A stretch of 21,312 nt of DNA from a virus: positions 1 to 21,312 of IMG/VR virus record IMGVR_UViG_3300010885_021359; one strand, written 5' to 3'. Below the pieces are notes generated by a model. That model saw nothing but the letters and a program-made list of their open reading frames with translations. It made no database searches and was not told the DNA's origin. Both the position numbers and the translations under genes were made by a program. Shown one piece after another: positions 1,012 through 16,229 of this stretch (positions are counted from its first letter, which is position 1; every line of letters starts with the position of its first letter).

Positions 1012-1803
1012 ATGTTTAACATCGAATTAATTAGAATAGACAAGGGAACTCAATCACGCATAGCCATCAGTCAGGAGACAGTTGATGACTACGCCAGACA
1101 CATGGAAGATGGGACAAAGTTTCCTCCAGTCGTAGTATTTCATGATGGAGTTGAGTACTATTTGGCAGACGGATTCCATCGCTACTTTGCTACCCGTAAG
1201 CTCAATCGGGACAGTATTGACACCGACATCGTCAAGGGTACGCTGCGGGAAGCTATTTTCTATAGCCTGAAGGCCAACAAAGCGCACGGCCTACGTCCAT
1301 CCATTGAAGACAAACGCAACAGCGTTACCAAGATGCTGACTGACCACGAATGGAAACTATGGGCAGACCGAGAAATCGCACGGCATTGCGGCGTTTCCCA
1401 TGTGTTCGTTGCCAAAATGAGAAAAGAAGTATCTGGCGGCAAAGTGCAGACCACCCGCAAATTTAAAGGCAAGGGTGGTAACGTTTCTACCTTTACCAAT
1501 CATCAGCCTGAGCCAGAGCCAGAGGCACCAGCCTATGACGAGAAGCAGGAAATGATGGAAGCCCTGATTGCTGAGAATGAAAAGCTGGCTGAGCAGTTGG
1601 CGATTGCAAGCATAGACGGCACAGTAGACGAAAAAGACTTAGCTGAAACCCTTATCAAAGAGCAGAAGGAAGAGATTCGGATACTCAAGATTGAGATGGT
1701 TGCCGTCAAGAAGAGTAGGGATATGTTCCAGTCTGAGAACGCACAGCTCAAGAAGCAGGTTGCCATGCTGCAAAAGAAACTGAAGGCGCAAGAAGATGCT
1801 TGA
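1012..1803 (+). CDS. ParB-like domain protein with HTH and coiled-coil tail
   Basis: A 263-residue protein. Residues about 5-90 match the ParB/sulfiredoxin fold: the 'SRIAIS...VDDYARHMEDG' segment, PPVVVF, and the signature ADGFHRYFA (GFHR at 54-57), the nucleotide-binding motif of ParB N-terminal domains. Residues about 118-138 form a HTH (DREIARHCGVSHVFVAKMR). After a linker rich in Pro and Glu, residues about 180-260 form a long charged coiled coil, unlike the compact dimerisation domain of chromosomal ParB. Phage ParB-like proteins are varied: regulators, partition factors or nucleases. The final 8 nt overlap the helicase gene. It carries one copy of the GGTAACG motif within its own coding sequence (1477). 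Confidence 0.85.
   Translation: MFNIELIRIDKGTQSRIAISQETVDDYARHMEDGTKFPPVVVFHDGVEYYLADGFHRYFATRKLNRDSIDTDIVKGTLREAIFYSLKANKAHGLRPSIEDKRNSVTKMLTDHEWKLWADREIARHCGVSHVFVAKMRKEVSGGKVQTTRKFKGKGGNVSTFTNHQPEPEPEAPAYDEKQEMMEALIAENEKLAEQLAIASIDGTVDEKDLAETLIKEQKEEIRILKIEMVAVKKSRDMFQSENAQLKKQVAMLQKKLKAQEDA
1477..1489 (+). promoter_or_regulatory. GGTAACGNTNCYA motif in ParB-like gene
   Basis: GGTAACGTTTCTA, within the ParB-like coding sequence. It is preceded by GGT, as in the two structured repeats upstream of terL. Together with the sites at 3551, 4415, 5204, 12242 and 12291 it makes six exact matches to one motif in 21 kb. Function as a binding site is inferred. Confidence 0.4.
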
Positions 1804-3498: not shown

Positions 3499-4294
3499 TT
3501 TCTGTCGGACGCAGGGCATCATGATTGATACGCCTCCACCGATTGGATACTGGAAGCGTTACCACACAGTTGACCATCCCAACAAAAGGAATGGGGCAGT
3601 TAAGTTCATGGGCGACCATGCCTTTGTCCAGAACCATGCCACTGATACAGAAGTTTCCGTATGGAAGCCTGACTCAATCAATGAGAGTGGACGCAGGGAC
3701 TATGCTCGGCTGGCGCAACAGGCTGAGCAGGAAAAGATTCGGATGCAGGAAAAGGCAGCAGCCAAGGCAAGGGATATGCTCAACGCATCAGTCCTGACCA
3801 CCCATCCATACCTGAAGTCCAAAGGATTTCCGGATGAACAAGGATGGGTAAACGATAAGAAGCTGGTCATTCCTGTTCGGCTGGATGGTGAGCTGGTCGG
3901 GTGCCAAGTGATAGACGAGGCAGGGGATAAGAAGTTTCTGTATGGTCAAAGGACATCAGGGGCATCGTTTGATTTCGATAACAAGGGGAAACATTACCAT
4001 TGTGAGGGCTACGCCACAGGCTTATCGTTGCGTCATGCGCTGCGGAGTTTGAAGCGCAACTATGTGATCCATGTTTGCTTTTCGGCTGGTAACTTGTTGA
4101 AGCTGGCGCAGAAATTCGGAGGGTTCGTGATTGCGGATAACGATGCAAGCGGGACGGGGGAGAGGGTTGCGAAGCAAACAGGCTTGCCTTATTGGATGAG
4201 TGAAGTAGTAGGCGAGGATGCCAATGATGCTCATCAAAGGCTTGGGCTATTCAAATTCACCCAAAGCCTTACTAAATCATTGCCTATACGATGA
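3485..4294 (+). CDS. TOPRIM-domain primase-like protein (stand-alone)
   Basis: A 269-residue protein. The N-terminal ~60 residues (WKRYHTVDHPNKRNGAVKFMG) resemble the region ahead of the catalytic domain in phage and plasmid primases, but without a Cys zinc finger. Residues 65-105 form a charged helix. Residues about 168-252 form a TOPRIM fold: catalytic Glu in HCEGYATG (E174), the DxD pair in IADNDASGTG (D218, D220), and the downstream EDANDAH seen in DnaG/gp4-like primases. Those proteins usually continue into a helicase or primase C-domain. Here the protein stops after TOPRIM, so the helicase function is separate, perhaps the SF2 gene upstream. The last 18 nt overlap the convergent gene at 4277. 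Confidence 0.85.
   Translation: MDLIDFCRTQGIMIDTPPPIGYWKRYHTVDHPNKRNGAVKFMGDHAFVQNHATDTEVSVWKPDSINESGRRDYARLAQQAEQEKIRMQEKAAAKARDMLNASVLTTHPYLKSKGFPDEQGWVNDKKLVIPVRLDGELVGCQVIDEAGDKKFLYGQRTSGASFDFDNKGKHYHCEGYATGLSLRHALRSLKRNYVIHVCFSAGNLLKLAQKFGGFVIADNDASGTGERVAKQTGLPYWMSEVVGEDANDAHQRLGLFKFTQSLTKSLPIR
3551..3563 (-). promoter_or_regulatory. GGTAACGNTNCYA motif in TOPRIM gene
   Basis: Reverse-strand GGTAACGCTTCCA, identical over 13 nt to the copy at 12242-12254 although the two lie nearly 9 kb apart in unrelated contexts. It lies in the 5' part of the TOPRIM gene. Confidence 0.4.
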
Positions 4295-5029: not shown

Positions 5030-5524
5030 TTAAAATAAACAAACTTGGCAACTGGAAAAATTCGCACGATAGATAATCGTGGTGTCTGTTTCGCTAATTT
5101 TTTTGCCAGCAGACTTGCTCATGTTCATGTTCTGCTCATTCAATGGGCGCAGCTTTGAATCGGTGTAGTCAAAGTCCAACACCTTGCGGGTACCCTTTTC
5201 AATGGTAACGATTCCATTGCCACAGCCTCGGTACTTTTTCTCAAGCAGCTCAGTTGGGATGGAATAAACATTCTTGTTTGTCTCCCTGTTCTTCAAAATT
5301 TGCTCAATGGCTTTATCAACATACTTCTGCATAACTTCATCAGGCTGTTCGGCTGATAACTTGTCATCGTGCAGGAACATGGCAAGCAGTCGGGGAAAGT
5401 TGGAAATCTCTTGACCTTCAAGGGCGAAGCCCTTCAGCATTGGCATGATCTGAGTTACTTTACCCATCAGGGCAATAGCCATAACATCAATCGCACTCCA
5501 TTTTTTTTCATAATCTTTAAACAT
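5030..5524 (-). CDS. Hypothetical protein (164 aa)
   Basis: A 164-residue protein of no recognised family. The ATG at 5522-5524 is chosen over the one 12 codons upstream because AAGGAGAG precedes it. The N-terminal half is hydrophobic and helical (IDVMAIALMGKVTQIMPMLK); the middle is charged. The C-terminal third is beta-like with KKYRGCGNGIVTIEKG and ends with Cys (SSCQVCLF). It overlaps the next gene upstream by 8 nt. A GGTAACGATTCCA motif lies within it. Confidence 0.8.
   Translation of the reverse strand: MFKDYEKKWSAIDVMAIALMGKVTQIMPMLKGFALEGQEISNFPRLLAMFLHDDKLSAEQPDEVMQKYVDKAIEQILKNRETNKNVYSIPTELLEKKYRGCGNGIVTIEKGTRKVLDFDYTDSKLRPLNEQNMNMSKSAGKKISETDTTIIYRANFSSCQVCLF
5204..5216 (+). promoter_or_regulatory. 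GGTAACGNTNCYA motif in 5030 gene
   Basis: GGTAACGATTCCA, antisense to the 5030-5524 coding sequence. The flanking ATT/AAT bases extend the similarity to the 4415 copy. Confidence 0.35.
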
Positions 5525-7941: not shown

Positions 7942-8109
7942 TTACATATCAAATTCATAGTCTTCTAAACTGGTAACGAGTCCGTCAAAGTCTTCGGATG
8001 ATCCGAGAATGCTCGCAAGGGCATAAACAATGTCTCGCGGATATTCTTCGCACAAACTCTCAAGGTAATCTCTGCGGCTTTGAAAGCCGTTTAATTGGTA
8101 TTCGGTCAT
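7942..8109 (-). CDS. Hypothetical acidic mini-protein (55 aa)
   Basis: Open frame of 55 codons, ATG at 8107-8109 (reverse) and TAA at 7942-7944. The sequence MTEYQLNGFQSRRDYLESLC, then DIVYALASILGSSEDFDGLV, is coherent, acidic and helical, with a texture of conserved phage mini-proteins. AAAGG lies about 9 nt before the ATG. About 100 nt of non-coding leader with alternative hairpins lies upstream. Function unknown. Confidence 0.72.
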   Translation of the reverse strand: MTEYQLNGFQSRRDYLESLCEEYPRDIVYALASILGSSEDFDGLVTSLEDYEFDM

Positions 8110-8156
8110 GGTCTGCCTTTCGTTGGTGGTTCGGATGGTATCTGTTAGGTTATGTG

Positions 8157-8195
8157 GTAACCTGTCAGGCAGGTTACTGGGTGAGTTGCTGCCTG
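8157..8195 (-). promoter_or_regulatory. Overlapping, mutually exclusive hairpins in a leader
   Basis: In the ~100-nt gap upstream of the 7942-8109 gene, GTAACCTG (8157-8164) pairs perfectly with CAGGTTAC (8170-8177) around a 5-nt loop. Within this, CAGGCAG (8166-8172) can instead pair with CTGCCTG (8189-8195). The two stems share bases and cannot coexist. No U-run follows on the minus strand, so this is not a standard terminator. It could be an attenuator-like element, a protein site or an mRNA processing signal. Confidence 0.35.
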
Positions 8196-11217: not shown

Positions 11218-11889
11218 ATGCATAAGCTATCAAGGAAGGCAATCAACGAGGGACTGGATACAATACCAATGGCAGAGATACTAGGTGTTTCCTCCGGTGA
11301 CAAGGGATTGACACACAAGATGCAAACATTCGCTAAAGAACTGGCTCGCGGTACTACCAAAGCCGAAGCATATCGCAAGGTCTACAGTAAGACAGCTAAA
11401 CCCAAGACAGCAGGTGACGCTGGCTATAGGCTGTCCACCGATTCCCGAATATCTGCGGAAGTCGAAGCATACAAAGCGGCAATGGCTAGCGCAGCATATA
11501 GAACACCAGAACATTTACGACAATTAGTTATCAAAACCCTGGTTGATGTAGCCATTTCCCCTGACAGTAAAGACAGTGTGAAAGTCGCAGCGGTGAAGGT
11601 ACTCGGCACAGTTGTCGAAGTCGGTGCATTCCTAGAACGGCGCGAGGTTATCAATACAACCAGCAGCACACAGGCTAAGGCTGAGCTACTCCAGCAGATC
11701 CGCACACTAATGCAAGGGAATGCAGTCGATGCAATAGAGGTTGACGCTGATAGTCTACTGCGCGAGCTTGCGCCGGAAGTGGAAACGCTACCAGCCGACA
11801 CCCACCCCGATGCCACCCCCCACGATGCAGAATCGGAGTCCCAAGCTGTCAAACATACTATTCCACTCGAACAATCCCAAAATATTTAG
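11218..11889 (+). CDS. terS: Terminase small subunit
   Basis: A 223-residue protein. Residues about 33-90 carry the small-terminase pattern KMQTFAKELARGTTKAEAYR, KVYSKTAKPKTAGDAGYRL, an N-terminal DNA-binding helical domain that recognises the packaging site. Residues about 97-140 form the helical oligomerisation segment (ISPDSKDSVKVAAVKVLGTV). The C-terminal tail is acidic and Asp/Glu/His-rich, where large-terminase contact usually lies. The ATG at 11218 is used; the frame remains open to a TTG at 11173 with no SD, and the SD here is also weak. Position upstream of terL supports the call, although a winged-helix gene lies between. Confidence 0.82.
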   Translation: MHKLSRKAINEGLDTIPMAEILGVSSGDKGLTHKMQTFAKELARGTTKAEAYRKVYSKTAKPKTAGDAGYRLSTDSRISAEVEAYKAAMASAAYRTPEHLRQLVIKTLVDVAISPDSKDSVKVAAVKVLGTVVEVGAFLERREVINTTSSTQAKAELLQQIRTLMQGNAVDAIEVDADSLLRELAPEVETLPADTHPDATPHDAESESQAVKHTIPLEQSQNI

Positions 11890-11890
11890 G

Positions 11891-11928
11891 TACCCCCATG
11901 CAAATTCTAAACAAGCCACCGGGGGGTA
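11891..11928 (+). promoter_or_regulatory. Possible hairpin enclosing the start codon of the winged-helix gene
   Basis: TACCCCC (11891-11897) pairs exactly with GGGGGTA (11922-11928). The ATG at 11898 would be the first loop codon and the likely SD (TAGGT) would be partly in the stem. An A7-T5 tract follows at about 11931-11942. This could limit translation of the regulator gene or act as a DNA site. The loop (24 nt) is long, so stability is uncertain. Confidence 0.3.
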
Positions 11929-12227
11929 GTAAAAAAATTTTTAATGCAAAGATGATCCCTCGGCCTAGTGACATGACGTATGAGGAATGCATGGAGAAAG
12001 AAATGTCCCCGGCACAGAATGAAGTTTTCTTGGTGATAGATGAGTGGTGGAAGAAGTACCACTATGCGCCCACGTTGCGGGATATTGCGTATATCCGTGG
12101 AAAGATGGGACTGGCGAATACTAAGAGGCTGGTGGACAGGTTGGTAGATCTGGGTGTGGTGAAGAAGATTGAGAAACGGGGCAGGACAGTAAGACCTGTC
12201 TATATTAGGTTCAGGGACTTGGAGTAA
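11898..12227 (+). CDS. LexA-type winged-helix DNA-binding protein
   Basis: A 109-residue protein. Residues about 36-105 (MSPAQNEVFLVIDEWWKKYH, YAPTLRDIAY, TKRLVDRLVDLGVVKKIEKR) follow the LexA N-terminal winged-helix pattern: an opening (L/M)(S/T)xxQ helix, YxPTxRxIA, a recognition helix, then a basic wing (GRTVRPVYI). There is no autoprotease domain, so this is only a DNA-binding module. The start may be downstream at 11955 or 11973, as the SD at 11898 (TAGGT) is weak and within a possible hairpin. It sits between terS and terL, so it may be a late-operon regulator or a second terminase-associated DNA-binding protein. Confidence 0.75.
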   Translation: MQILNKPPGGSKKIFNAKMIPRPSDMTYEECMEKEMSPAQNEVFLVIDEWWKKYHYAPTLRDIAYIRGKMGLANTKRLVDRLVDLGVVKKIEKRGRTVRPVYIRFRDLE

Positions 12228-12231
12228 GGAA

Positions 12232-12322
12232 ACTGTAAGGTGGTAACGCTTCCACCTTTCACGAAACTTACAGTAAGGAGTTTGTAAGGTGGTAACGTTA
12301 CCAGTTTACGCGAAACTTACAA
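12232..12322 (+). repeat. Two tandem 49-bp structured repeats upstream of terL
   Basis: Two imperfect copies with a 49-nt period share GTAAGGTGGTAACG (14 nt) and CGAAACTTACA. Each folds: copy 1 outer stem ACTGTAAG/CTTACAGT (12232-12239 with 12267-12274), inner AAGGTGG/CCACCTT; copy 2 outer stem TTGTAAG/CTTACAA (12282-12288 with 12316-12322), inner perfect 14-bp palindrome at 12290-12303. The outer stems differ by a C-G to T-A pair change on both sides, a compensatory substitution. No T-run follows, so a terminator is unlikely. It could be a packaging-initiation (pac/cos-like) site, an operator array or structured RNA. Confidence 0.7.
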
Positions 12323-12334
12323 TAGAGGGAGACT

Positions 12335-13825
12335 ATGAAACTTGAGGATTTGATAGATAAATTGGAACCGCATGAGTATGAGAAGTTCATGGCTCAGGTG
12401 ATGGAGTATCGTGGGGCGGTGGAGAGGGAGAAGGCTCAAGAGGGCTTTATGCATTATGTAAAGATGATGTGGCCCGGATTTGTGAGTGGGAGGCATCATG
12501 CTTTGATGGCAAAGAAGTTTGAGGATATTGCGAACGGAAAGATTAAGAGGGCGATTATTAATATGCCACCACGACATACGAAGTCGGAGTTTGCCTCGTA
12601 TTTGCTTCCTTCATGGTTTCTGGGAAAGTTTCCAAATAAGAAAGTGATTCAGTGTTCTAACACGGCGGATCTGGCGGTGGGTTTTGGACGTAAGGTCAGG
12701 AACTTGGTTGACAGTGAGCAGTACGCGAAAGTGTTTCCTAATGTGGCCTTGAGACAGGATAGTAAGGCAGCAGGTAGATGGGCTACCAATGGAGGAGGCG
12801 AGTATTTCGCTATTGGTGTTGGGGGTACTGTTACGGGTAAGGGTGCTGACCTATTAATTATTGACGATCCGCATTCTGAGCAGGAAGCTGCTTTAGCTGC
12901 TGGCGACCCCAGTGTTTACGATAAGGTTTATGAATGGTATACATCTGGCCCACGGCAACGTTTACAGCCGGGCGGATCTATTGTGATCGTGATGACTCGC
13001 TGGGGAGACAGGGATCTGACAGGTAGGGTCATTAAGGATGCAGCAGGTAGAGATAAGAGTGAAGAGTGGGAAGTAATTGAGCTGCCTGCTATCATGCCGT
13101 CAGGAAAACCTTTGTGGCCTGAGTTTTGGAGTTATGAAGAGCTGTCTGCTCTAAGGGAAGAGTTACCAGCAGCCAAGTGGAATGCTCAGTATCAGCAGAG
13201 TCCGACTGGCGAAGAGGGTGCGATTGTTAAGCGGGAGTGGTGGAAGAGATGGACAAAAGAAGAACCGCCGGTATGTCAGTTTATTATTCAGAGCTGGGAC
13301 ACTGCTTTTACGAAAAGTGAGAGGAGTGACTATTCGGCTTGTACAACATGGGGCGTGTTTTATTTGAATGAGAATGCGGATGATGCGAACATCATTTTGC
13401 TGGATGCGTTTAAGAAGCGGATGGAGTTTCCGGAGTTGAAAGAGAAGGCTTACTCTAACTATATGTACTGGGAGCCGGATGCATGTGTGATTGAAGCAAA
13501 GGCAGCGGGTAGTCCGTTGATTTTTGAGTTGAGACAGATGGGCATTGTGGTGAGTGATTACACGCCGAGCCGTGGAAATGACAAGTTTGTGCGGATCAAT
13601 GCAGTTGCTGATTTATTTAGTTCAGGTAAAGTGTGGGCTCCAGAGACTCGCTGGGCTGACGAGTTGATCGAAGAGATGGCTGCATTTCCGAATGCGCCGA
13701 ATGATGACTTGGTGGATTCATCTACGCAGGCATTGATAAGGTTTCGCAAGGGCGGTTTTTTACGACTTGCATCCGATGAACGGGAAGAGCTGAAGAGCTT
13801 TCGCAGAAAACAAACTTACTATTGA
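12335..13825 (+). CDS. terL: Terminase large subunit
   Basis: A 496-residue packaging motor ATPase and nuclease. Walker A-like NMPPRHTKSE (76-85), Walker B LLIIDDPH (173-180) with the catalytic acidic residue after it, coupling motif MTRWGDRDL (220-228). The C-terminal RNase H-like nuclease has acidic residues in QSWDTAF (D322), VIEAKAAG (E387) and NDDLVDS (D457/D458). SD GAGGGAG lies 3 nt before the ATG. It translocates DNA into the prohead docked on the portal encoded next door. Length and motif order are normal for the family. Confidence 0.95.
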   Translation: MKLEDLIDKLEPHEYEKFMAQVMEYRGAVEREKAQEGFMHYVKMMWPGFVSGRHHALMAKKFEDIANGKIKRAIINMPPRHTKSEFASYLLPSWFLGKFPNKKVIQCSNTADLAVGFGRKVRNLVDSEQYAKVFPNVALRQDSKAAGRWATNGGGEYFAIGVGGTVTGKGADLLIIDDPHSEQEAALAAGDPSVYDKVYEWYTSGPRQRLQPGGSIVIVMTRWGDRDLTGRVIKDAAGRDKSEEWEVIELPAIMPSGKPLWPEFWSYEELSALREELPAAKWNAQYQQSPTGEEGAIVKREWWKRWTKEEPPVCQFIIQSWDTAFTKSERSDYSACTTWGVFYLNENADDANIILLDAFKKRMEFPELKEKAYSNYMYWEPDACVIEAKAAGSPLIFELRQMGIVVSDYTPSRGNDKFVRINAVADLFSSGKVWAPETRWADELIEEMAAFPNAPNDDLVDSSTQALIRFRKGGFLRLASDEREELKSFRRKQTYY

Positions 13826-13832
13826 GGATTAA

Positions 13833-16229
13833 ATGGACATCGCAAAATCACTTTATGTCGCGCCCCAAGGGTTGGAATCTTTAACAGAAGAGCCTGACTT
13901 GGAAATTGAAATTGAAGATCCTGAGTCCGTAACTATAGGTATGGGCGGGATGGAAATTACTTTAGGGTCTGATGATGACTCTGAACGGTTTGATTCCAAT
14001 CTGGCGGAGTTCATGGATGAGGGTGAGCTGGAACAAGTAGGCTCAGAGATTGTTGAGCTTGTTGAGGCAGACATTAACTCCCGTAAAGACTGGGTGGAGA
14101 TGTTTGTAAAGGGTTTGGAAGTATTAGGGATGAAGTATGAAGAGAGGACTGAGCCTTGGAATGGGGCTTGTGGAGTTTTCTCTACGATACTGACAGAGGC
14201 GGCGGTGAGGTTTCAGTCTGAGATGATTGTGGAAACGTTTCCAGCTCAGGGGCCAGTGAAGACAGAAATCATTGGTGCCATCAATAAGATGAAGGAAGAA
14301 GCTGCTGAGCGAGTTCGTGCTGACATGAACTACCAGTTGACTGAGGCGATGCCTGAATACAGACCAGAGCATGAGCGCATGTTGTTTAATTTGGGTTTAG
14401 CAGGGTCAGCCTTTAAGAAGGTCTACTATGATCCGGCGCTGGGAAGACAGACCTCTATATATATACCTGCTGAGGATGTGATTATTCCTTACGGCTCAAG
14501 TGGAGCTAGGACGGCAGAGCGTGTTACTCATGTGATGCGAAAAACAAAAAATGATATTCGTAAATTACAAGCCGCAGGTTTTTACAGAGATATTGATCTG
14601 GGTGAGCCGGTAGCTATTCATACTGACGTTGAGAAAAAGAAGGCCGAAGAGCAGGGCTACTCTTTGACTGACGATGACCGGTATCAGATATACGAAGTGC
14701 AGATTGATTTTGAAATGCCGGGGTATGAGGATGATGACTCTATCGCCTTACCTTATATCGTTTCGATTGATGCTGGTACGGGAAAGATTTTGTCGATCTA
14801 CCGTAACTACGAAGAAGAAGATGTAGTTCGATTGAAGAGACAACACATGGTGCAGTATGACTATGTGCCGGGGTTTGGCGCTTATGGATTTGGCTACATA
14901 CACTTGATTGGTGGATATGCACGGGCTGGTACTTCACTGATCCGTCAGTTGATTGATGCTGGTACTTTAAGTAATTTACCCGGCGGATTGAAATCGCGTG
15001 GCCTGCGAGTCAAGGGTGACGATACGCCTATCTCCCCCGGAGAGTTCAGGGATGTTGACGTACCCAGCGGGTCGATCAAAGACAACATCATGGCTTTGCC
15101 ATATAAGGAGCCGAGCCAAGTATTGGCGGCGCTGTTGGAAAAGATAACCGAAGAAGGCCGCAGGTTAGGTTCTATTGCTGATATGAAGATCAGTGATATG
15201 AGTGCAAACGCACCGGTGGGAACTACTCTGGCTATTCTTGAGCGACAGTTAAAGACGATGTCTGCTGTGCAGGCGCGAGTTCACTTTTCGATGAAGCAGG
15301 AATTCAAAATCCTGAAGAACATCATTCGTGACTACACGCCTACAGAGTATGAGTACGATCCTGAGAGTGGAGATCGTAAGGCTAAGCAAGAAGACTATGA
15401 CATGGTGGAAGTGATTCCAGTGTCAGACCCAAATGCAGCAACTATGGCGCAGCGGATTATGCAGTATCAGGCTGTGATCCAGTTGGCGCAACAGGCTCCG
15501 CAGATCTATAACTTGCCTCAGTTGCATCGTCAGATGATTGAAGTGTTGGGTGTAAAAAATGCCGACAAGCTGGTGCCAACAAAAGATGACCAGAAGCCAA
15601 GAGATCCGATCAGCGAGAACATGGCATTCTTAAGAGGTGAGCCGACAAAGGCTTTTATCTACCAAGATCAGGATGCGCATATTCAGGCGCACCAATCGTT
15701 CATGCAGGATCCAAGCATGGCGGCAGCTATGGGACAAAATCCTATGGCTCAGCAAATGCAAGCAGCGATCATGGCGCACATTGCAGAACACTTGGCATTC
15801 AAGTACCGCAAGGATGTGGAAGAACAAGTAGGCGTACCTCTGCCTAATCCTGATTCCGACCTTCCGGAAGATGTTGAAGTTCAGTTGTCTCGCTTGGTTG
15901 CCCAAGGTTCTCAGCAGTTGATGCAAAAGAATTCGGCTCAAGCGCAGCAGCAACAGAATCAACAGATGCAGCAGGATCCGCTGGTTCAAATTCAACAGGC
16001 TGAGCTTCAGGTCAAACAAGCTGATGTACAGCGTAAGACGCAGAAAGATCAGTCAGATGCGCAGATTGCAATGCAGAAATTGCAGCTTGAAAAGCAGCGC
16101 ATTGAAGCTGAGATTCAAAGAGAAGGTAAACGTATCCAGTCACAAGAGCTGCAAGCCAAGGCCAGAATTGAATCTGAAGTAACGATGCGTCAATTGGAAA
16201 TGATGAACCAACCAAGCAAAGGTGAGTAA
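13833..16229 (+). CDS. Portal protein (798 aa, podovirus-like)
   Basis: Large portal by length, position directly after terL, and sequence style: an acidic N-terminus (residues 1-90), a mixed alpha/beta body with GFGAYGFGYIHLIGGYARA and an N-A-P-V-G-T-T-L segment (SANAPVGTTLAILERQL, about 460-475) typical of P22/podovirus-type portals. The C-terminus is a Met/Gln/Ala-rich region (about 620-720) followed by a long charged coiled coil (about 720-790), resembling the barrel helix that extends into the capsid. SD GAGGA before ATG. It forms the dodecameric DNA port and docks the terminase. Recognition rests on sequence texture and synteny, not a search. Confidence 0.88.
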   Translation: MDIAKSLYVAPQGLESLTEEPDLEIEIEDPESVTIGMGGMEITLGSDDDSERFDSNLAEFMDEGELEQVGSEIVELVEADINSRKDWVEMFVKGLEVLGMKYEERTEPWNGACGVFSTILTEAAVRFQSEMIVETFPAQGPVKTEIIGAINKMKEEAAERVRADMNYQLTEAMPEYRPEHERMLFNLGLAGSAFKKVYYDPALGRQTSIYIPAEDVIIPYGSSGARTAERVTHVMRKTKNDIRKLQAAGFYRDIDLGEPVAIHTDVEKKKAEEQGYSLTDDDRYQIYEVQIDFEMPGYEDDDSIALPYIVSIDAGTGKILSIYRNYEEEDVVRLKRQHMVQYDYVPGFGAYGFGYIHLIGGYARAGTSLIRQLIDAGTLSNLPGGLKSRGLRVKGDDTPISPGEFRDVDVPSGSIKDNIMALPYKEPSQVLAALLEKITEEGRRLGSIADMKISDMSANAPVGTTLAILERQLKTMSAVQARVHFSMKQEFKILKNIIRDYTPTEYEYDPESGDRKAKQEDYDMVEVIPVSDPNAATMAQRIMQYQAVIQLAQQAPQIYNLPQLHRQMIEVLGVKNADKLVPTKDDQKPRDPISENMAFLRGEPTKAFIYQDQDAHIQAHQSFMQDPSMAAAMGQNPMAQQMQAAIMAHIAEHLAFKYRKDVEEQVGVPLPNPDSDLPEDVEVQLSRLVAQGSQQLMQKNSAQAQQQQNQQMQQDPLVQIQQAELQVKQADVQRKTQKDQSDAQIAMQKLQLEKQRIEAEIQREGKRIQSQELQAKARIESEVTMRQLEMMNQPSKGE

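Follow-up and report, generated by a model that had tools for sequence, protein, structure and literature searches.

ParB-type clamps are known from chromosome and plasmid segregation, from Noc and from silencing by KorB. In Bacillus subtilis one parS lies inside the parB gene (spo0J) itself, and Noc has its sites scattered around the chromosome. In the composite parS of plasmid P1, two regions of a single ParB, together with IHF, recognise the A and B boxes. KorB of plasmid RK2, which works with KorA (operators OB and OA), has a regulatory role beyond partition (PMC11790492). The mycobacteriophage stoperators, in turn, belong to a lysogeny repressor and are asymmetric (PMC9283540, PMC6550527). 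A survey of the ParB-CTPase fold covers ParB-fold proteins in phages and nucleotide binding and, in the sections considered here, describes no cognate sites for the phage members (PMC12704722). Our open-access literature search turned up no report of a phage ParB that lacks a ParA and has a genome-wide set of sites of its own, and our analysis points to an undescribed ParA-less network of ParB and parS-type sites in a large aquatic phage group, with site clusters at the terminase genes.

The window, i.e. the whole stretch of DNA analyzed here, is a virus contig of 21.3 kb. Like the composite parS of P1 it has two kinds of box with helical phasing, although the second box type has only candidate readers here. 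With chromosomal ParB-parS and Noc-NBS (PMC7383237) it shares a 14-bp palindrome, an HTH with a residue after a conserved Ser that sets specificity and a structural match, whereas the core is AACGTT instead of CACGTG or CCCGGG, no ParA was found, GTAAG boxes make the sites composite and the sites lie across the phage genome and at terminase genes. The likeness to RK2 KorB (PMC11790492) consists of the ParB-family fold (Foldseek matches 8qa8 and 8qa9), a number of palindromic operators comparable in length (OB has 16 bp) and a small HTH protein as putative partner; the present system, however, is on a phage, its sites are mostly inside genes and differ in sequence, and the candidate partner is a LexA-type winged-helix (wHTH) protein and not KorA. 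Sites are found at the wHTH/terL junction, but without a recognisable promoter. Stoperators (PMC9283540, PMC6550527) resemble our set in the many protein sites across a phage genome, but the sites described here have perfect dyad symmetry, go with a ParB-like protein and come with no sign of lysogeny genes.

In the window, terL (12335..13825, + strand; PF17289 E 1.8e-13, and relatives) is preceded by two tandem copies at 12217-12265 and 12266-12314 with a spacing of 49 nt and an identity of 78%, which bears out the tandem repeat reported in the preliminary description. The placement between terS and terL given there stands in part: the elements do lie upstream of terL, but the gene adjoining them upstream encodes the LexA-type wHTH protein of 109 aa (11898..12227, + strand; phrog_3502 E 4e-10; PF01726 E 6.8e-5, with 23.0 bits against a Pfam cut-off of 23.7), and terS (11218..11889, + strand; phrog_51 E 6.7e-6) comes before that gene. 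Both copies contain TGTAAGGTGGTAACG, and a 16-mer probe gave 3 matches in the window compared to 0.10 expected. The centre of each 49-nt copy is the 14-bp palindrome TGGNAACGTTNCCA. We took the anatomy of the element from an alignment of 21 distinct copies in close relatives, in which the consensus core is TGG[T/A]AACGTT[A/T]CCA. GTAAG boxes flank the palindrome symmetrically at -21.5, -10.5, +10.5 and +21.5 bp from its centre (on the right side as the mirror CTTAC), and neighbouring boxes on each side are one helical turn apart. This anatomy is identical across the alignment with invariant GTAAG and CTTAC arms; the least conserved box is the right inner one, which is lost in copy 2 of L003.

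Composite element 1, defined by direct reading and the 21-copy alignment, spans 12224..12271 (no strand is assigned to this or any of the following palindromic sites). Its 12-bp core TGGTAACGCTTCCA is located at 12242-12253 with the dyad at 12247/12248, its GTAAG boxes at 12224-12228 and 12235-12239, and the mirror boxes are CTTTC at 12256-12260 (degenerate) and CTTAC at 12267-12271. For composite element 2 (12273..12320), defined by the exact genome-wide motif and the alignment, the 12-bp core TGGTAACGTTACCA is found at 12291-12302 with the dyad at 12296/12297, GTAAG at 12273-12277 and 12284-12288, TTTAC at 12305-12309 and CTTAC at 12316-12320. By dyad symmetry the inner GTAAG mirrors the inner (C)TTAC and not the outer CTTACAG, to which it had previously been paired as an outer stem. 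Helical-turn spacing combined with exact dyad symmetry is the imprint expected of a protein complex on DNA, and among the earlier readings the operator array comes closest, since the palindromes look like protein sites on DNA. We recognized no sigma-70 promoter at the elements, and promoter and terminator signals there did not exceed shuffles. On the whole, the earlier interpretation is partly supported. The GTAAG boxes may be a second ParB-type half-site, perhaps the relic of an older specificity, or may alternatively be bound by another protein such as the wHTH protein, which stays a candidate for them.

RNA hairpins in the wHTH-terL mRNA that control terL translation or mRNA stability would suit the position of the elements directly ahead of the terL start codon, and both copies do fold better than shuffles (-13.5 and -11.5 kcal/mol, z -3.0 and -1.9). 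Such moderate folding is, however, accounted for by the fact that palindromic protein sites fold by construction. The preliminary description had inferred selection on structure from compensatory changes in the stems and had proposed a covariation analysis in homologous phages. Pair counts over the 21 copies under two alternative pairings revealed no covariation beyond shuffles, extra outer pairs were no more frequent than in shuffles, the arms are invariant and the -4/+4 pair is broken in 8 of the 21 copies. At 114 distinct sites, -4 and +4 are each occupied by A or T; the two are complementary in 53 of these and unpairable (often A/A or T/T) in 61, i.e. pairing occurs in about half of the sites, which is the chance level. 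An Rfam scan of the elements matched no family, and the core is also present inside genes genome-wide. The claim of compensatory change is not supported, and an mRNA element or covarying hairpin is in our view highly improbable.

The core palindrome is not confined to the tandem pair. Allowing at most 1 mismatch, GGWAACGTTWCC was found 11 times in the window compared to 0.12 expected, and 23, 21 and 18 times in the relatives G002, G006 and G016, respectively; a near-complete relative of 59 kb contains 13 exact copies, most of them within genes. As the 21-kb window holds too few exact copies for a strict-palindrome de novo scan, we used longer relatives. In this unbiased scan for gapped palindromes the motif ranked first in G002, G006, G016, G019 and the distant G018 and G015; it led the palindromes in 5 of 6 relatives and in the distant phage G018, and in G010 the leader was the variant TGGAA-N4-TTCCA. 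Genome scans of G011, G012 and G013 did not find the motif. Exact sites within ORFs numbered 10 in G002 and 13 in G006, compared to 0.17 and 0.25 in codon-preserving shuffles (~50-fold), so that conservation of the proteins can be ruled out as the origin of the dispersed set. T at position -7 is conserved in 91% of 139 distinct sites, though it is outside the search pattern, and conservation drops sharply beyond it, which argues for a site length of 14 bp. The parS core in ParB crystals has the same length (PMC7383237).

Dispersed sites of the window include GGAAGCGTTACC in a primase-like gene (3552..3563; exact GGAAACGTTACC in G002 and G016), the one-mismatch sites GGTAACGATTCC (5204..5215; at the same place in G002, G003 and G009) and GGAAACGCTACC near the end of terS (11781..11792), and the exact site GGAAACGTTTCC inside the portal gene (14231..14242). 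For individual sites, among them the one in the portal gene, protein conservation may be at least part of the cause. Relatives with a different ParB helix, such as L204, L205 and L309, also keep the portal site. A further site, GGTAACGTTTCT, lies inside the parB gene at 1477..1488 (codon 156, in the linker directly after the HTH) and reads GGTAACGTTTCC in most relatives. Because this same DNA site stands in frame in parB, the translations of the tandem copies resemble GGNVSTF of the ParB-like protein. That resemblance is real and had been taken as a hint that the pair is a tandemly duplicated piece of coding sequence, akin to the ParB linker, that has decayed. The motif occurs, however, in all reading frames of ORFs and in unrelated genes, and the dyad geometry is conserved in relatives; frame independence and geometry rule this origin out, so that we give it practically no chance.

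The proposed reader is a ParB-like protein of 263 aa (1012..1803, + strand; phrog_1033 E 8e-17). Pfam yielded no match for it at E 0.01. Its AlphaFold2 model has a mean pLDDT of 87, and the top Foldseek matches of the model are ParB, Noc and KorB over ~140 columns with E 2.6e-7 to 2e-5, so that model, Foldseek and phrog_1033 together identify the ParB N-terminal fold and an HTH domain. Conserved GTQSR and DGFHRY stretches resemble nucleotide-binding boxes. The recognition helix is CGVSHVFVAKMRKE with the specificity residue H130 after S129, and the varying helix residue is the counterpart of position 173 of ParB/Noc, which in Caulobacter ParB sets parS/NBS specificity experimentally (PMC7383237).

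A protein of this type could serve a partition or genome-organisation centre, with ParB at parS-like clusters compacting, sorting or counting phage genomes, and the ParB/Noc/KorB-type model, the parS-like sites and the sites inside parB agree with this. The ParA-binding motif [LFI]G[KR]G[LFI] is, however, absent from the protein, and neither ParA (PF13614, with positive control genomes) nor a tyrosine integrase was found in 12 contigs of 43-67 kb, which, as most contigs are metagenomic, may be incomplete. Absence of both from the 12 long contigs makes classical partition unlikely, and the missing integrase leaves no sign of a low-copy prophage plasmid needing partition. We therefore regard a partition or organisation centre as doubtful. 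Lysogeny operators were rejected for want of a tyrosine integrase in these contigs.

In order to relate helix and site we compared 183 ParB homologue loci with the surrounding DNA, first 87 and then 96 that were fetched later. In the first set, VSH homologues are surrounded by 117 GGNAACGTTNCC sites in 741 kb and all others by 3 in 700 kb, all 3 at one locus. The later set gave 40 sites for VSH versus 1 (Fisher p 3e-6), and in this sole exception the helix is cut off by the contig end. Sorted by class, VSHx[FY] helices account for 117 sites in 900 kb, compared to 7 in 1.4 Mb for all other helices. Perfect 12-bp palindromes with an AACGTT core were observed 79 times at the pooled ParB loci versus 5.5 expected, and no other core came near. 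Phylogeny-aware pairs were ~2.8 for and 0.1 against the association, which with p 0.25 are too few pairs for significance. The exact motif is lacking at 12 of the 58 VSHx[FY] loci (e.g. L161 and L219); the opposite exception is L204, which has a VSR helix and three sites. The proteins compared with the motif as readers were the ParB-like and the wHTH protein, and the neighbouring helicase and primase genes are co-inherited with parB. This association across sequences shows that the presence of the cognate palindrome goes together with the residue at the specificity position of the recognition helix in ParB.

Other helices come with other palindromes. Proteins with VSHTLV pair with TGGAAACTCTTCCA or TGGAAAAGTTTCCA and those with VSHMLV pair with TGTAAATATTTACA; sites of both classes are located at parB codons 147-157, in the linker directly after the HTH. 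L171 (VSYTFV) pairs with GACAACGTTGTC; in the closely related L172 (VSHPFV) the sites are of the GGT type. Helices of the type VS[SPA]xL pair with TGTAAGNNCTTACA, ACTAGTCNGACTAGT occurs eight times in the Manatee Spring phage MW202545 (VSQSFV), twice in parB and twice adjoining terL, and the gut phage MT835519 has CTGTCGN5CGACAG with 1 of 3 copies in the parB gene; these last classes were defined after looking, and taken singly they carry less weight than the VSH test. In view of the dispersed motif beyond chance, the ParB/Noc/KorB-type model, the tie between helix and site, and the cognate sites in parB and at the terminase junction, the ParB-like protein is very likely the reader of the core palindrome.

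The LexA-type wHTH protein would be the other obvious reader, regulating its own operon through the core palindrome, as the elements lie next to its gene, at whose start codon cognate sites are often located. Its recognition helices are, however, alike in phages with and without the motif, and our search found no wHTH homologue in the motif-bearing G018 or in MW202545, which makes such a reader quite improbable.

Around the terminase genes, relatives with a TerL identity of at least 93% have one to three copies at the wHTH-terL junction (L091 is near-identical to the window). The preliminary description had named relatives that lose the stems and retain the genes as evidence against its structural reading, and such relatives exist: among those listed at 70-89% TerL identity no copies are found there, and in many the wHTH gene abuts terL, so the elements are not needed for the terS-wHTH-terL block itself. 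Some of these relatives without the pair keep the dispersed motif (G010). In the dereplicated VSHx[FY] loci we counted 13 sites in parB versus 3.5 expected and 10 sites in the 650 bp upstream of terL versus 1.4 expected. At the terS-wHTH-terL junction, phages with another specificity likewise carry a palindrome of their own: between terS and the wHTH gene, L311 and L258 have three tandem 37-bp units, L253 has two, and L308 (19972-20325) has four 100-bp repeats with eight TGTAAG-N2-[CT]TTACA palindromes. In G018 and MW202545 pairs of palindromes directly follow terL. The pair of the window is one form of a recurring arrangement at terminase genes. As a separate observation, TGTAAG, the half-site of the L308-type palindrome, recurs as the word of the boxes that flank the cores of the window's elements.

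Since cognate sites recur at terminase genes across several specificity classes, up to eight of them in L308, and the elements adjoin terL, we keep a packaging role as a possibility, namely a pac/cos region where TerS, perhaps with ParB, binds the pair and packaging starts nearby. We consider it unlikely, however: copies of this core are scattered genome-wide, mostly in unrelated genes, the pair is missing from relatives whose terS and terL are homologous, and the palindrome tracks ParB and not TerS.

The pair likely consists of composite parS-type sites belonging to a genome-wide set that the phage's own ParB-like protein would read. ParB dimers would bind the palindromic sites, with the tandem pair upstream of terL as a strong parS-like loading cluster from which, by analogy with ParB, Noc and KorB, clamps would spread. 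Together with a partner that binds the boxes, possibly the adjacent LexA-type wHTH protein in the way that KorA works with KorB, the spread clamps could then silence the terminase/late operon or set its timing; this KorA-like role of the wHTH protein as a possible partner is inference only. Alternatively, ParB could label the phage DNA for the packaging machinery. That the main output is control of the terminase operon is conceivable, though we lean somewhat against it. In more general terms, these ParA-less and apparently non-integrating phages may use a stand-alone ParB clamp at dispersed parS-type sites and a centromere-like composite cluster at the terminase genes, where the cluster would link ParB loading to late transcription or genome packaging, and site and protein would have switched specificity together many times while the cluster stayed at the junction. 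All of this jointly is put forward tentatively, the balance tipping slightly to the negative side. The phages supply many natural pairs of recognition helix and palindrome and hence a ready system for ParB specificity change, and it becomes testable whether a ParB clamp helps the phage to time the terminase operon, or to select or compact phage DNA for packaging.

The cultured TerL relatives HTVC027P and DSL-LC04 have 0 and 1 site in the first 50 kb, and neither is among the ParB matches. In the motif-free G011 (contig of L019) we observed six gapped repeats AGAAAT-N8-ATTTCT, mostly intergenic (8082-8166, 8981, 21564 and 28822). The Vibrio phage CHOED (L336), whose distant ParB-like protein is annotated as streptomycin operon regulator, contains ten copies of AAGGT-N2-ACCTT compared to 0.17 expected.
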